Made by a program: the position numbers and the translations under genes. Below, in pieces: positions 11,096 to 16,890 of a DNA stretch of 64,000 bases. The stretch is from Bacillus sp. EAC (GTDB lineage: Bacteria > Bacillota > Bacilli > Bacillales > Bacillaceae_G): positions 1 through 64,000 of the forward strand of contig NZ_NCSY01000011.1 in NCBI RefSeq assembly GCF_002156875.1. Direction: 5' to 3'. The notes under the pieces are model-generated. The model saw only the letters and a program-made list of their open reading frames with translations. It was not told the DNA's origin and searched no databases. How positions within the stretch are numbered: the stretch's first letter is position 1; each line of letters starts with the position of its first letter.

Positions 11096-14000
11096 TTAGC
11101 TTAATTTTTTAAACTGTATTAGCGTTATATCATCAACAATCTGTTCATCTAAGTTTGAAGTTGCCTCAATTGTTTGATGTACATCATTTTCAATTTGCTT
11201 ATTGAAATGATTTAAAATTGTAGACATTGTATTCGTAAATTGAATTTGATAGTGTTCTGCAAATAATTTTTCGATACTTGATAAATATGATTTTAAAGGT
11301 GTTCTTAATTGTTCAATACATTCATCTAACATCAACTCTTTTTTGTTTTCTACAAAAAAGCTTTTTGGATTTTTATAATGCGATTTTAAATTTTCAAATG
11401 TATTCACATCAATGTATTGATCAGGATTAAGTAGTTCTACAGAAATGATTTCACTTACATTCGTTTTTTGAATCGTAAATTCCGTTTGAATAGTCTGTAA
11501 TTCATCTATTATTCTATTTTCAGCATTTAGAATTTCACTCATTAAAAACTTTTCTAAACGAAAACCAGTTACTCTTAATTCCTTTAAAATTTCTTCTAGT
11601 ATTTCATACATGAATTCTCGTATTTTTGTATTGAAAATTTGTTTACTATTCTTAGTTGAATTATTAAAAATACTTGGGTTAAAAAAGTACGGGAACAAGT
11701 CTCTCATTCGCAATTCAATTCTTTTTTCAATAAAGAAAATTAATTGCTCACTTTCTTTCATGAACGACCTAGGTAACGAACTTGGCATAGCAGCTTGCAA
11801 GGTATTATTTACATCGACTTTTATCTTTTCAAGTTCAGATAAAAATTGGTCTTTTTCTAGTTTTAAGCGATCAAATCGTTTAATCGTATCAAGTAATATT
11901 TTTTCTAACATTAATAAATCATTAACAAACGTTTTAAAGACTTCATTTGCAATTTCAAATTGAAAGAAATTCTTAATCTTTTCATTTAGTCTTTGGTAAT
12001 TCAGTTTAAGTTCTTCGCTAATAGATGTTTGTTGATATCCTTTCATTTGAAGCATACTTGATATTGCAAATACCGATGGAAATCTTACACCTAATTTAGT
12101 TAATTGATTAATAAAGAAGTTTTGTACAATTGAAATTTCAGCACTATCCTTCGCCAAATCAGAAGCATTCAATACAAAATAAACTTTATCGCTGTCAAAA
12201 CTCTCTCTCATACGGCCAATTTGAATTAAGAATGATTCATCTTGACGCGTAAATGCATGTTGGTAATGAGCAACATACAAGATTAAATCAGCCTTCTTTA
12301 AATAATCAAATGCCAGTTCAGTATGTCTCGAGTGGATACTATTTCCCCCCGGAGTATCAACTAAAACAATCCCACTTTGTGTAATCTCACAATCATAATA
12401 AACCGTACTTTCTTTAACAAAACAAGCTCGATTCTCTTCACTGATTACGCGTACATATTCTTCTAAATCATATTGTTGGGTCGTACCCAATATTTCTTTC
12501 ATTTGTAAATAGTTCATACATACACTATCTGCATAGATCCAAGCATCAGCAGGAATTTTATCCTTCTGTTTTTTTGTGACAGTTTGAAGTGTACTAAACC
12601 AATGATCGTTAGTTTCTACGCCCCATTTTTTGAAAAAATCAAGAAACTCTTCTTGTAAAACTAATTCAGACTTATAAGTTACATCTGCCTTTTTATTACC
12701 AGAATCGATTGTAGACTTTTTAATTTTGCAAATCGCAGCAGTGGTTGGGTGAGGTGAAACAGGTAAAACACGTTCCCCAAGTAATGTATTAATATACGAT
12801 GTTTTTCCTGAACTAAACGCTCCGAATAAAGCAATGGTATACTCATTTGATTTAATTTGCTCTCGTTTTTCTAACAGACTATGAATTTTATTTTTCACAA
12901 ATTTATTATTTGATAAATTCTTTAACAAATTATCTGCGATCTCATATTTTGAATTAATTTCCTCATTCGAATATTTTTTTACATCTAGTTTTTGACTTTC
13001 GACGTCTTCAAATGATTTTTCTTCTGTTTGAATTTCGTTTGAAAGAATATTCCTTTCCATTAATTCATTAACTGAAATAGAAATTGGTACAATTGGAGAG
13101 TAAACAAGCACTTCATCCTGTTTATTTTCAATAATATTTTTCATTTCAGATATCATTTGATCAAGTTGATGATTTTTGAAATCAATTCGATCAAATTCAT
13201 TTATCTTTTCAGAAAGTTCTTTCTTTCTAATTTCTAACACACTATTTTGTTTCTCGTTTTGAAGTTTCATTTCTTTTGAAACCGATTGAATAAATTCAAT
13301 GATTGATTTGCGATAAATTGACTTTATTCCATCACTTACTTCTTTTGTATACTGTAATAAGTAGTTTCCACTAGTATTCACTAATTGAGCAGGCTTTGGA
13401 CAAAGATCACTTTCACTAAGTTTAGGCTCTAGGATATTTTCAAATTGGCTTAAATCAATTTTATTGTTTTCGACTTCTTTAAACGATTTCGTTGCAGCTT
13501 CTTTAATGAAATATTCGATTTGTTTTATAGTTAACTCATGTACATTTTTAATAAATTGTTGTTTAGCCTCATCTGATGCTATCTCTAGTTTTTTTCGAGA
13601 TTGGAAAAAGCCTTTATTTTGTAATGCCTTCTCTGTTTCTAAATAAACTGAAGCTAAATTTCTCATTTCAAATGGTGTAATGTTTGAATTATTTAATATA
13701 AGTTGCGTCGATTGAGAACAATTATTTTCAAACGTAGTTATCCCATCCTGAAGTTTTTCCATTTCATCAGTTACTTCACTGAATTCATTTTTAAACTGTG
13801 AAAAATCGGAATCTAGTTCTGTTTTTTCATTCTCAAAGTTTACAATTTGTTCACCCATAATATTTAAGAAGCTAGTATAATCATTTTCGATTTGTTGCTC
13901 TTCACGAGTTTTATATAAACCATCTAAGTATTGCATAAATTGGTTCAGTTCATTATGATTAGCATTTTTAACTTTCGTCGATAAGTAAAAAACAGGTAAT

Positions 14001-14692
14001 TTTTCTAAGCCCTGTTTCTTTAAATTGCTAACTACACCTTCTTTAAACTCTTCAAATGTTAATTCAGTTTCATCATGTTTATCAATACAAGTAATCATTA
14101 AACAGACTTTATTGTTTTTCTCCATTAACCCATTTATAAAATCGATATTGGTTTTTGAATGGACATGCTGATAATCCATTAAATAGAAAATACAATCCGC
14201 TAAATGAATTACTGAATTAGTCGCTTCTAAATGATCCATATCAGTCGAATCAATTCCAGGTGTATCAATTAAAACTACACCTTTTGGAATTTTAAACATA
14301 TCTTGCCACCATTCAATTTCAATGATAGATGCGCTATCTTGAGCAAGTTTTTTTAATTCTCCGCCTTCAATATCATCTTCCAACTGATACATTTCACCAT
14401 TCTTTAAAGTAAGTAATAAATTATTTGCTCCATTTTTTAATTTCACGACATTTGCACTTGTTGGAATCGGACTAGTTGGTAGCTTTTCAACATGTAATAA
14501 ATCATTCAAAAGAGAAGATTTTCCTGCAGAAAAATGCCCACAAAATACAAAATAACTTTCATGATTTTGAATTTTATAAGCTAATTTTTTTAATTGAAAT
14601 AATTCTTTTGAATTTTCCTGTGCAGAAAGTAAAGTGATTCCTGAAGAAACCTTATTTAATAAATCTCCTCTGTTAATCTTAGTGTTTTGCAA
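11096..14692 (-). CDS. dynA: Double dynamin-like GTPase DynA
   Basis: At 1198 residues this is a tandem bacterial dynamin, matching B. subtilis DynA (YpbR, about 1193). Each half has a GTPase domain: P-loops GHFSAGKSS (near 51) and GAFSSGKTS (near 622), switch motifs DTPGIDST (near 143) and DTPGGNS (near 781). Long coiled-coil stalks follow both. Members bind and tether membranes and help repair them under antibiotic or phage stress. Translation starts at TTG 14692 behind GGGGA. It overlaps no gene; the sulfurtransferase gene follows closely. Confidence 0.9.
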   Translation of the reverse strand: MQNTKINRGDLLNKVSSGITLLSAQENSKELFQLKKLAYKIQNHESYFVFCGHFSAGKSSLLNDLLHVEKLPTSPIPTSANVVKLKNGANNLLLTLKNGEMYQLEDDIEGGELKKLAQDSASIIEIEWWQDMFKIPKGVVLIDTPGIDSTDMDHLEATNSVIHLADCIFYLMDYQHVHSKTNIDFINGLMEKNNKVCLMITCIDKHDETELTFEEFKEGVVSNLKKQGLEKLPVFYLSTKVKNANHNELNQFMQYLDGLYKTREEQQIENDYTSFLNIMGEQIVNFENEKTELDSDFSQFKNEFSEVTDEMEKLQDGITTFENNCSQSTQLILNNSNITPFEMRNLASVYLETEKALQNKGFFQSRKKLEIASDEAKQQFIKNVHELTIKQIEYFIKEAATKSFKEVENNKIDLSQFENILEPKLSESDLCPKPAQLVNTSGNYLLQYTKEVSDGIKSIYRKSIIEFIQSVSKEMKLQNEKQNSVLEIRKKELSEKINEFDRIDFKNHQLDQMISEMKNIIENKQDEVLVYSPIVPISISVNELMERNILSNEIQTEEKSFEDVESQKLDVKKYSNEEINSKYEIADNLLKNLSNNKFVKNKIHSLLEKREQIKSNEYTIALFGAFSSGKTSYINTLLGERVLPVSPHPTTAAICKIKKSTIDSGNKKADVTYKSELVLQEEFLDFFKKWGVETNDHWFSTLQTVTKKQKDKIPADAWIYADSVCMNYLQMKEILGTTQQYDLEEYVRVISEENRACFVKESTVYYDCEITQSGIVLVDTPGGNSIHSRHTELAFDYLKKADLILYVAHYQHAFTRQDESFLIQIGRMRESFDSDKVYFVLNASDLAKDSAEISIVQNFFINQLTKLGVRFPSVFAISSMLQMKGYQQTSISEELKLNYQRLNEKIKNFFQFEIANEVFKTFVNDLLMLEKILLDTIKRFDRLKLEKDQFLSELEKIKVDVNNTLQAAMPSSLPRSFMKESEQLIFFIEKRIELRMRDLFPYFFNPSIFNNSTKNSKQIFNTKIREFMYEILEEILKELRVTGFRLEKFLMSEILNAENRIIDELQTIQTEFTIQKTNVSEIISVELLNPDQYIDVNTFENLKSHYKNPKSFFVENKKELMLDECIEQLRTPLKSYLSSIEKLFAEHYQIQFTNTMSTILNHFNKQIENDVHQTIEATSNLDEQIVDDITLIQFKKLS

Positions 14693-14800
14693 CGTGATTT
14701 CCCCATTTCATTTCAAACTCAAATAAATCCCTAAAATTATTTTATCCCCATATATATTAATTTGGAAGAAGAATGTATAGGCAAATCAATTATAAATAAA

Positions 14801-14826
14801 AAAACTAGGTAACATCACCTAGTTTT
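14801..14826 (-). terminator. Terminator of the small Fur-box transcription unit
   Basis: AAAACTAGGT pairs exactly with ACCTAGTTTT around a 6-nt loop, followed leftwards by TTTATTTATA. The stop codon of the 26-residue frame lies in the first arm, so the unit ends right after its coding part. Confidence 0.85.
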
Positions 14827-14899
14827 GAACTTGTTTAAGTACATATTTAGTTAATACAAAATATAAAAGTATTGTAGCAGACACAAATCCAAGAACCAT
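14819..14899 (-). CDS. 26-residue single-pass membrane peptide under a Fur-box-like site
   Basis: The frame runs ATG 14899 to TAG 14819. The product has one hydrophobic helix (LGFVSATILLYFVL, residues 3-16) followed by a basic tail (TKYVLKQVQN). GAAAGG lies about ten bases upstream of the ATG, a weak but possible ribosome-binding site. It has its own promoter, a Fur-box-like operator and a terminator, so it is a complete unit of about 130 nt between ypbQ and dynA. I recognise no family. It could be a small membrane regulator, or the transcript could act as an sRNA. Confidence 0.5.
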   Translation of the reverse strand: MVLGFVSATILLYFVLTKYVLKQVQN

Positions 14900-14920
14900 T
14901 GACGCACAACCTTTCGAAGT

Positions 14921-14975
14921 TGATAATGATTTTCATTCTAGATTAATAATATCAGTTTTGCTGAATCATTGTCAA
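14921..14975 (-). promoter_or_regulatory. Promoter with Fur-box-like operator
   Basis: On the minus strand TTGACA (14970-14975), an 18-bp spacer and TATTAT (14946-14951) form a strong promoter. Directly at and after the start site lies GAATGAAAATCATTATCA (14921-14938), very close to the Fur consensus GATAATGATWATCATTATC. A repressor there would block initiation, so expression is expected when iron is scarce. Per/Zur-like regulators with related sites are alternatives. Confidence 0.6.
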
Positions 14976-14978
14976 CAA

Positions 14979-15482
14979 TTATTCGATTGACTGTAAAAGC
15001 GCTTTATTTTCTTCTCGGATCCTTACTTTTAAAAGGATTAGATTACTAATTGAAAAGATTACTGTAGTAATATACGCGTGAAACATAATTGGTATGATAA
15101 TTAATTCTAACGTTACGATTAAATAATTTGGATGCTTTATGTATTTATATAGTCCTTTGTTAATTAATTTTTCATTTGGTAAAACAATTATCTTCGTATT
15201 CCATCTCTCACCTAATGTTGAAATGACCCAAACTCGCGCAAGTTGTAAAATTAAAAACAGACTAAATAAAAAGGTGAAAAAACTTAATTTAACATATTCA
15301 ATAAAATAATTTTCAACTACTATTGAAATAAAAAAAGTACTGTGCAAGATAATAAAATATTTATAGTGGGCTTGTCCTAGTTCAATTGCACCTCGCATCT
15401 TTAACTTTTTTTCATTGTTTTTTGCAATTTTTAATTCAAATAATCTCTGTACGATAATAAATAAAAATATCAATTTTAACAT
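14979..15482 (-). CDS. ypbQ: Isoprenylcysteine methyltransferase-like protein YpbQ (alkylpyrone O-methyltransferase)
   Basis: This membrane protein of the ICMT family has about 167 residues with four to five helices. The conserved C-terminal motif GLYKYIKHPNYLIV (near 110-124) and the ending ...IREENKALL bind S-adenosylmethionine and the lipid substrate. In B. subtilis the homologue BpsB methylates alkylpyrones made by the neighbouring type III synthase. ATG 15482 overlaps the bcsA stop as TAATG, indicating translational coupling; a GTG at 15488 is the alternative. Confidence 0.8.
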   Translation of the reverse strand: MLKLIFLFIIVQRLFELKIAKNNEKKLKMRGAIELGQAHYKYFIILHSTFFISIVVENYFIEYVKLSFFTFLFSLFLILQLARVWVISTLGERWNTKIIVLPNEKLINKGLYKYIKHPNYLIVTLELIIIPIMFHAYITTVIFSISNLILLKVRIREENKALLQSIE

Positions 15483-16573
15483 TAACACTCAACCCACTTT
15501 AATAGTGACATTTCTGAACTAAATCCTGGTCCTAAAGCGCAAAGTAATCCAGTTTCATTTTTCTTTCCTATTTTCATAAACTCTTCCAGTACAAATAAGA
15601 CAGTACAAGAAGACATATTTCCATAATTCTTTAGAATGTCTAAAGATACAGAAGTTTTTTCTGGATCAATATTAAGCGAATCTATATAAGCATCTAGTAC
15701 CTTTTTCCCGCCAGGATGTGCAATAAAGTGATTTAAACCATCAATCGCTAAGTTATTCGATTGTAAGAAAGAAGAAACGACTGGCTGTAACCAGTTTTTT
15801 ACGATGGATGGGATATCCCTTGAAAAAATAACGAAAAGACCCTCATTTTTTACATCCCATCCCATTACATCCAATGAGTTTGGCATGAGTGTTGAATTTG
15901 TTTGTAAGATATTGGGTAAAGCGACATGAATGGTTCTGGCTTTTAATTCACTTTCGTCGCCAATTACTAAAACAGCAGCAGCACCATCAGCGAATAATGA
16001 AGTCCCAATGATATTACTTTTTGATAAATCTTCTTTTTGAAATGTTAAGCTACAAAGTTCCACTGCTACAAGTAAGATATTAGATTCTGGATGAGCTTTA
16101 CAATAATCAAATGCTCTAGAAATTCCACTTGCTCCACCTGCACAACCAAGTCCCCAAATTGGAATTCTTTTAATAGATGTTTTTAAAGGTAAAATATTAG
16201 CAATATGTGCATCAATTGTCGGCGTTGAAATACCTGTTGAGGAAACGAATATAATACCATCTATTTCATCATAATTAATCTCTGAGGATAAAAATTCCAG
16301 ATTAGAAACACAGTTCTTTATCGCTTCAACTGATAATTGAATTGCGGTCTCTATATATGTTTGATTTTTTTCTTCTAAACTATGTTCCTCACTATACCAA
16401 GTTAGTTCCTTTGAAAGATATCTGCACTTTATTTCTCCATTTTGAAATACAGATAAGAGTCGATCAATCGATGGATACTTCTTTAAAAACAATTCCCTTA
16501 CAAATGGTACGATATTTTCTTGATTTATTTTACATGTAGGAACTGCTTTTCCTACCGATAGTATTAAAGGCAT
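15482..16573 (-). CDS. bcsA: Type III polyketide synthase BcsA/BpsA
   Basis: ATG 16573 is chosen because it follows AAGGAG at ideal spacing and gives 363 residues (B. subtilis 365). The chalcone-synthase-type catalytic triad is visible: C144 (GLGCAGG), H286 (FIAHPGG) and N319 (YGNMSS). The enzyme extends long-chain acyl-CoA with malonyl- or methylmalonyl-CoA and cyclises the product to alkylpyrones. It overlaps ypbQ, whose product O-methylates them. The pair forms a two-gene operon reading leftwards. Confidence 0.9.
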   Translation of the reverse strand: MPLILSVGKAVPTCKINQENIVPFVRELFLKKYPSIDRLLSVFQNGEIKCRYLSKELTWYSEEHSLEEKNQTYIETAIQLSVEAIKNCVSNLEFLSSEINYDEIDGIIFVSSTGISTPTIDAHIANILPLKTSIKRIPIWGLGCAGGASGISRAFDYCKAHPESNILLVAVELCSLTFQKEDLSKSNIIGTSLFADGAAAVLVIGDESELKARTIHVALPNILQTNSTLMPNSLDVMGWDVKNEGLFVIFSRDIPSIVKNWLQPVVSSFLQSNNLAIDGLNHFIAHPGGKKVLDAYIDSLNIDPEKTSVSLDILKNYGNMSSCTVLFVLEEFMKIGKKNETGLLCALGPGFSSEMSLLKWVEC

Positions 16574-16890
16574 AATTTTCCACTCCTTCATTATCTTACC
16601 TTTCGTAAAATGAATCAAAATTATTCAAATTACAATTTGGTCAAACAAAAAAGGACAATCCCAGTTCCCATTCATCAATTGAATGAAACACTTGAATTGT
16701 CTAAACGTTTTAAAGGAGTTTTTTCTTTTTGTTGTGCAAATTTAGTATATCCTAAATCTAGCTATGAAACATTCGCAATTATTTCCAAGTTAATTCAAAT
16801 GAAGGTCGACTACTCGTCTTAAGACGACCTTCGAATAGATCGTCAATATGCTCTAATTTCGCCTTTTAAATCACCTTAGAGTGGAGACTA

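Follow-up and report, generated by a model that had tools for sequence, protein, structure and literature searches.

The DNA analysed here (the window) is a stretch of 64,000 nucleotides from Bacillus sp. EAC. Its minus strand carries, from 14975 to 14795, a compact unit composed of a strong promoter, a Fur box, a ribosome-binding site, a frame of 26 codons and a terminator. The unit lies between a gene of the ICMT family and a gene for a double dynamin, with a type III polyketide synthase gene further upstream; we take the ICMT and polyketide synthase genes to be bpsB and bpsA, respectively. The features are as follows.

15482..16618, minus strand: bpsA-like gene, type III polyketide synthase (Pfam PF00195/PF02797)
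14979..15488, minus strand: bpsB-like gene, ICMT family, upstream neighbour (Pfam PF04140, E 5.3e-27)
14970..14975, minus strand: -35 hexamer TTGACA, also present in the aligned same-genus relatives
14946..14951, minus strand: -10 hexamer TATTAT, separated from the -35 hexamer by an 18-bp spacer
14921..14935, minus strand: Fur box TGAAAATCATTATCA (7-1-7), 13/14 consensus letters
14905..14914, minus strand: ribosome-binding site AAAGGTTGTG, 8/10 letters of AAAGGAGGTG, judged by eye
14819..14899, minus strand: fbpC-like gene of 26 codons, MVLGFVSATILLYFVLTKYVLKQVQN, with ATG at 14899 and TAG at 14821-14819
14801..14826, minus strand: intrinsic terminator, 11-pair stem and T-run, with the TAG stop within the 5' arm
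11096..14692, minus strand: dynA-like gene, double dynamin, downstream neighbour (Pfam PF00350, two stretches)

Transcription signals and reading frame of the unit

The TTGACA/TATTAT pair, which an earlier note on this DNA had proposed as a promoter without giving a strand, was found on the minus strand and matches 11 of the 12 consensus letters. A scan of 3 kb gave 12 promoter-like sites, among which this pair ranks first; it should be noted that the number of such sites shows no excess there (12 observed, 16.4 in shuffles). The Fur box begins 10 bases past the -10 hexamer and thus sits just behind the expected start site, where the same note had placed a Fur-box-like operator, and its 15 bases are identical in 13 out of 13 same-genus genomes. 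The 21-mer around the box occurs once in the window, the chance expectation being 0.03 at up to three mismatches, and the letters of the ribosome-binding site are identical in 11 of the 13 aligned same-genus sequences, with L013 and L014 deviating. Searches with a pattern combining the Fur box and the start of the frame returned one copy in each of the 13 genomes of the genus and none for the reversed control pattern; this strict pattern had no match in the six genomes from other genera of the host's family. Two more short DNA matches were seen in other genera (G046 and G015). A second match in the own genome (G000:C11:6565-6618, 79% over 54 bases) showed by eye no corresponding frame or box and was rejected as a chance AT-rich match.

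When the box was searched in the loose form TGANAATNATTNTCA, the genome contained 11 sites including that of the window, versus three for the reversed control pattern. Six of the ten other sites (L032, L034, L036, L037, L038 and L039) adjoin iron-type genes, which encode a FecCD permease with a binding protein, a siderophore-type ABC ATPase with a binding lipoprotein, FTR1, an imelysin with a Dyp-type peroxidase and, at two sites, a small gene product followed by a flavodoxin. Because of this excess, and of the iron-type genes at six sites out of ten, the loose motif very probably represents the iron box used by the host organism. As a separate observation, the genes at the other four sites (L030 at G000:C1:214109, L033, L035 and L040) have no obvious iron role; these are a DUF1904 gene and genes which by eye resemble those for a branched-chain amino acid transporter, a chromate transporter and a nitroreductase.

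The frame at 14899-14819 shows clear signs of coding constraint. For seven non-identical coding stretches from the genus the in-frame pN/pS is 0.14, against 3.2 in the +1 frame and an undefined value in the +2 frame, in which no synonymous change occurs; with the most divergent relative added, the values become 0.30 in frame and 1.15 and 5.98 in the other two. Judged by these comparisons the frame is under purifying selection, and the 26-residue gene, though easily overlooked, is real and probably iron-repressed. The comparison with relatives suggested in the earlier note thus came out in favour of both the box and the frame, and the frame is where that note had put it, followed, as it had also described, by a terminator whose 11-pair stem (14826-14801) contains the TAG stop.

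The stability of this terminator is -11.9 kcal/mol (z -4.55 against shuffles), and once it is removed, the transcript is no more stably folded than its shuffles (z +0.77). These values bear on the reading which the earlier note had left as a choice between an iron-responsive small membrane protein and a dual-function sRNA. A short Fur-box transcript with a strong terminator does resemble FsrA-type RNAs, and the unit could accordingly be read as a dual-function sRNA, or as a purely regulatory RNA in which the frame is incidental. We regard this as extremely improbable, given the purifying selection in the frame, a peptide that can be recognised across the order (see below), the poor folding ahead of the terminator, the lack of any run of three C or three G in the transcript, and the lack of Rfam families near their gathering score at 14600-15200, where three matches at E 5 are far below it. 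The features of a Fur-controlled sRNA of the FsrA type, i.e., a structured, C-rich base-pairing RNA, were not seen in the window transcript. The other half of the choice has fared better, in that the kept Fur box, the purifying selection and a predicted hydrophobic helix all support, at the level of sequence, an iron-responsive small membrane protein.

Relation to FbpC and distribution in the order

The earlier note had recognised neither the gene as a diverged FbpC nor the wide occurrence of the unit in the order. Searches of Pfam and NCBIfam with the window peptide returned nothing, and the NCBIfam model NF033217 (Fur_reg_FbpC) was silent even at E 1; the lead to FbpC came from two relatives which match Fur_reg_FbpC weakly (E 0.0073 and 0.084). 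B. subtilis, the control genome, passes the cut-off of NF033217, as do 10 of the 397 genomes from the order; among the 19 genomes of the host's family none does. This cut-off (60 bits) marks the narrow equivalog of NCBI and not the homologous family, and the window peptide is therefore classed as a homologue within the family but outside NCBI's equivalog. An hhalign comparison of the window-type group (9 rows) with the above-cut-off FbpC group (6 rows) gave an alignment in the same register with a probability of 90 and an E-value of 1.7e-6, which is the value for one single comparison. Above-cut-off FbpC forms (e.g., L096/L097, with a frame of 30 codons) align with the window peptide in one register by way of intermediates, at 35% identity.

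The genomic position agrees with this alignment. Both bpsB and dynA flank the above-cut-off FbpC loci L091-L097 and L100, as they flank the window unit. We take ypbQ of B. subtilis to be bpsB and fbpC to lie in that genome between ypbQ and ypbR, in agreement with the order found here. Tables in one source place ypbQ upstream and ypbR downstream of the corresponding stretch (PMC4448311), and passages of another give ypbR as DynA (PMC8637298). On the combined basis of the profile comparison, the intermediates and the position bpsA-bpsB-peptide-dynA, of which the position settles orthology, the window unit is a positional orthologue of Bacillus fbpC, much diverged. Since the gene is a diverged FbpC, there is no new gene family here; the kind of gene is already known, and the value of the finding is a revised picture of FbpC and of its spread.

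That spread was addressed by pattern and profile searches. A scan with the peptide pattern identified window-type units in Gottfriedia luciferensis, G. acidiceleris, G. solisilvae and Bacillus strains, and a more divergent form in G. endophytica, which suggests that the host is itself a Gottfriedia or a close relative. A profile of the genus peptides picked out short frames from further families of the order, with a Fur box and often a terminator. The family pattern is M-x3-F-x3-T-x3-Y-x4-[KG]-[YF]-V-[LM], with lengths of 24 to 56 residues (median 31). A 43-row family profile at E 0.01 detected members in 166 of the 397 genomes and in 49 of the 135 genera; an initial 5-row profile, run over the whole order at E-values of up to 1, had matched 287/397 genomes, but its output was mostly noise and was excluded from the counts. 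The 60-bit cut-off of NF033217 passes over most of the family (10 genomes versus the 166 of the broader profile), and members are easily missed because they are so short and diverged.

For the analyses below 127 loci were collected, composed of all 58 pattern matches, 40 profile matches, 28 loci retained after inspection and the window. The 40 profile matches were chosen by hand across families and E-values among the matches listed, 166 genomes having a match. Loci L061, L062, L065, L066, L068, L069, L071, L112, L114, L072 and L115 were left out as unrelated, L058, L059, L060, L063 and L070 as repeats of pattern loci, and L098 and L099 as identical peptides; same-genus loci from the earlier DNA search were also left out of the 28. 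The 127 loci comprise 109 different peptide sequences, of which many come from sister species, and six or more pairs with identical peptides are one record entered twice (L118/L247, L167/L053, L156/L055, L136/L056, L165/L067 and L143/L110), so that the counts do not represent independent events.

Fur-box-like sites were scored as the best site out of 14 letters within 120 bases upstream. A score of at least 12 was found in 56 of the 58 loci collected by the peptide pattern alone and in 38 of the 40 checked profile matches, the two exceptions in each set scoring 11. When the 58 loci, the window and the 28 inspected loci were taken together, 82/87 reached at least 12, compared with 2/1384 control windows and 0.6% of shuffles; this count takes in 28 loci that had been inspected beforehand, whereas the 58- and 40-locus counts are free of that bias. 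At a threshold of at least 13 the numbers were 42/87 members, 0/1384 control windows and 0.02% of shuffles, and at a threshold of at least 11 the controls gave 31/1384 windows and 5.1% of shuffles. By these counts the predicted Fur control is a trait of the family. A second Fur-like site scoring at least 11 is present in 81 of the 127 members, mostly 33-40 bases from the first. This pairing is not kept in the host genus, where scores of 9 to 12 were obtained for the second-best site, which is located elsewhere. Most of the named same-genus loci have it about 20 bases upstream of the main box; in loci such as L129, L151 and L158 this weaker Fur-like site (10 to 12/14) covers the -10 region, whereas most other genera have a box on the -35 side instead.

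The neighbourhood is kept to a similar extent. BpsB ends no more than 450 bases upstream in 105 of the 125 collected loci with enough flank and DynA starts no more than 1300 bases downstream in 109 of 119, and among the 40 checked profile matches the two neighbours are present in 37 and 39 cases, respectively. The 10 loci without a DynA start within 1300 bases are L054, L055, L102, L103, L106, L109, L111, L144, L156 and L231; at L144 DynA is present, but further off, and at L103, L106, L109 and L111 the peptide is kept all the same. The Domibacillus loci (L120, L122, L133, L142, L146, L155, L173 and L174) have lost BpsB in front of the peptide and kept the peptide itself, with dynA following in seven of the eight and too little flank at L174; in the Domibacillus copies L058, L063 and L070 a gene that by eye is CheX-like stands in BpsB's place. 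As dynA or bpsB is absent beside some members, the neighbourhood names no partner for the peptide.

The conserved downstream gene does raise the question of whether the unit acts in cis. With the stop codon inside the terminator stem, the 5' arm would be occupied by any ribosome that completes the peptide, and translation could in this way be linked to read-through of the polymerase into dynA when iron is short. Such an overlap of stop and terminator was detected, by a simple scan without shuffle control, in the window and in 26 of 126 members, from several lineages, and dynA does lie downstream in the great majority of loci. Most members, however, have no overlap, the 10 loci without a nearby DynA start have both box and peptide, and the amino-acid sequence is conserved, which would be needless for a leader peptide. 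We therefore consider a role in cis on dynA very improbable.

The order was also searched for other members of the iron-sparing response. FsrA (RF02273) was found in 14 of the 397 genomes, 10 of them above the gathering score, while the 12 genomes searched from the host genus gave no match, under filters strict enough for a diverged or weak FsrA to escape. The FbpC-type peptide thus appears to be kept where FsrA is undetectable, with the drift of sRNAs and the strict filters qualifying the FsrA count. FbpB was present in 40 of 40 relatives and FbpA in 21 of 40. The own genome has three FbpB-type loci above the Pfam cut-off (G000:C25:82746-82859, C11:397247-397363 and C11:38821-38934), no FbpA and no detectable FsrA.

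The conserved helix face and its possible partner

The window peptide is predicted to form a single hydrophobic helix that is nearly free of charges and runs into a short tail of mostly basic residues; the earlier note had likewise read a membrane helix and a basic tail. This composition is general in the family: 108 of the 109 unique peptides contain a 15-residue stretch with a Kyte-Doolittle mean of at least 1.6, and charges at positions 2-16 occur in two of them. The best-kept positions are Y13 (104/109), T9 and V20 (101/109 each) and F5 (94/109), while the basic positions vary (position 18 is K in 75/109 and G in 15/109, position 22 K in 45/109 and D in 15/109). When placed on a helix, F5, T9, Y13, V/L16 and V20 fall within 80 degrees; the conserved positions 10, 18, 19 and 21, including K18, Y19 and L21, lie outside this face. 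Conservation was periodic at 100 degrees, with permutation p-values of 0.0006 to 0.003 for the 40 profile loci (33 after thinning), 0.004 to 0.01 for the whole set (75 after thinning) and 0.010 to 0.026 for the first 49. As the 58 pattern loci were selected by a pattern that holds F5, T9 and Y13, the test on the 40 profile matches is the one trusted most, the profile behind them being itself partly built from pattern loci. AlphaFold modelled an FbpC-type member of 30 residues, not the window peptide, as a helix from residue 2 to 28 (mean pLDDT 86.5, pTM 0.39). A single hydrophobic helix with a constrained face is what characterises regulatory single-span membrane peptides, and both appear to be present here.

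FbpC has been postulated to be a small basic protein that assists FsrA, an sRNA of the iron-sparing response, as an RNA chaperone (stated as a postulate in passages of PMC8464778, PMC7430163 and PMC12871923). In favour of this, the three FbpB-type loci mean that the own genome has part of an Fbp set. According to a passage in PMC8464778, RNA binding has been confirmed for no Fbp. The residues conserved best are hydrophobic, hydroxyl and aromatic ones on a helix, with the basic ones less well kept, and FsrA, even allowing for sRNA drift and strict filters, is found in far fewer genomes than the FbpC-type profile. The conserved shape points to a membrane peptide and not to an RNA helper, and we judge the chaperone role to be quite improbable. 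The net charge of the window peptide is +2, within a family range of -1 to +7 with a mode of +2, and would be compatible with RNA binding at the membrane. In a search of open-licence papers, as distinct from subscription papers and databases such as SubtiWiki, none was found that describes FbpC as a peptide of the membrane.

The reading we favour, and think likely from the sequence comparisons, is that of a Fur-repressed single-span peptide which, much as MgtS and MntS do, binds to a membrane protein, in this case when iron is scarce. When iron is present, Fur-Fe(II) would cover about +5 to +19 and block the promoter. When iron falls, a single-gene mRNA of roughly 140 nt would be made and translated, and the peptide would insert as a single span with its tail, going by the charge, in the cytoplasm. 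The face formed by F5, T9, Y13, V/L16 and V20 would then bind to a helix in a partner protein of the membrane, altering the activity or stability of that protein, with the result that iron is saved or kept. First guesses for the partner would be an exporter of iron or a membrane protein of respiration that is rich in iron, any particular choice being at best a guess with the odds against it.

A related possibility is that the peptide belongs to, or modulates, specifically a membrane complex of respiration, such as a cytochrome or succinate dehydrogenase, and not a transporter; in the former case it would be a subunit. Oxidases can have tiny single-span subunits. At fbpC of B. subtilis, moreover, Fur seemingly aids the binding of NsrR and/or ResD, according to a part of PMC6212828, which hints at respiration. 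The family profile had no match at E 5 among PDB chains, however, and direct evidence for a respiratory partner was not found, which leaves this version rather unlikely.

The iron-sparing response of Bacillus includes three Fbp proteins, FbpC among them, and the portions of the literature examined do not show the mechanism of FbpC. In the picture obtained here it is one member of a family found across much of the order, in which the membrane-helix face is kept best. The favoured binding of a membrane protein may perhaps extend to FbpC and to the order-wide family as a whole, which would then be no RNA chaperones but the iron counterpart of MntS and MgtS, turning down one conserved membrane protein; we put this wider proposal forward tentatively. 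If true, it would give the Bacillus iron-sparing response a post-translational arm that is older and wider than its FsrA arm. The change of model is testable, in that a membrane partner should be sought and not only RNA binding, and for annotation the family profile can be used together with the genomic address between bpsB and dynA.

Comparison with known systems

The closest known relative is FbpC of B. subtilis (29 residues according to a passage in PMC8464778), which passes the cut-off of NF033217; the window peptide is not detected by that model. Shared features are the Fur box at the promoter, the very short frame, the helix register M1, F5, T9, Y13, V20 and L21, and the place between bpsB (ypbQ) and dynA (ypbR); it should be noted that this likeness was judged on genomes above the NF033217 cut-off, B. 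subtilis itself contributing just the passing of that cut-off. The two differ at residues 17-19, which are T-K-Y in the window peptide and I-G-F in above-cut-off FbpC, and the single clear Fur box of the window sets it apart from the majority of family members with their second site.

FsrA and IsrR, which are Fur-controlled or iron-repressed sRNAs, have a short Fur-box transcript in common with the window unit, which differs from them in being protein-coding, unstructured outside its terminator and without C-runs. MgtS, MntS, MgtR, MgtU and AcrZ are described in passages of PMC10710835 as short membrane peptides that bind transporters. What they would share with the window unit is a very short membrane peptide (here a predicted one) and a link to metal starvation or stress; they differ from it in responding to Mg, Mn or drugs, where the unit described here would respond to iron and Fur, and no sequence relation between them is claimed.
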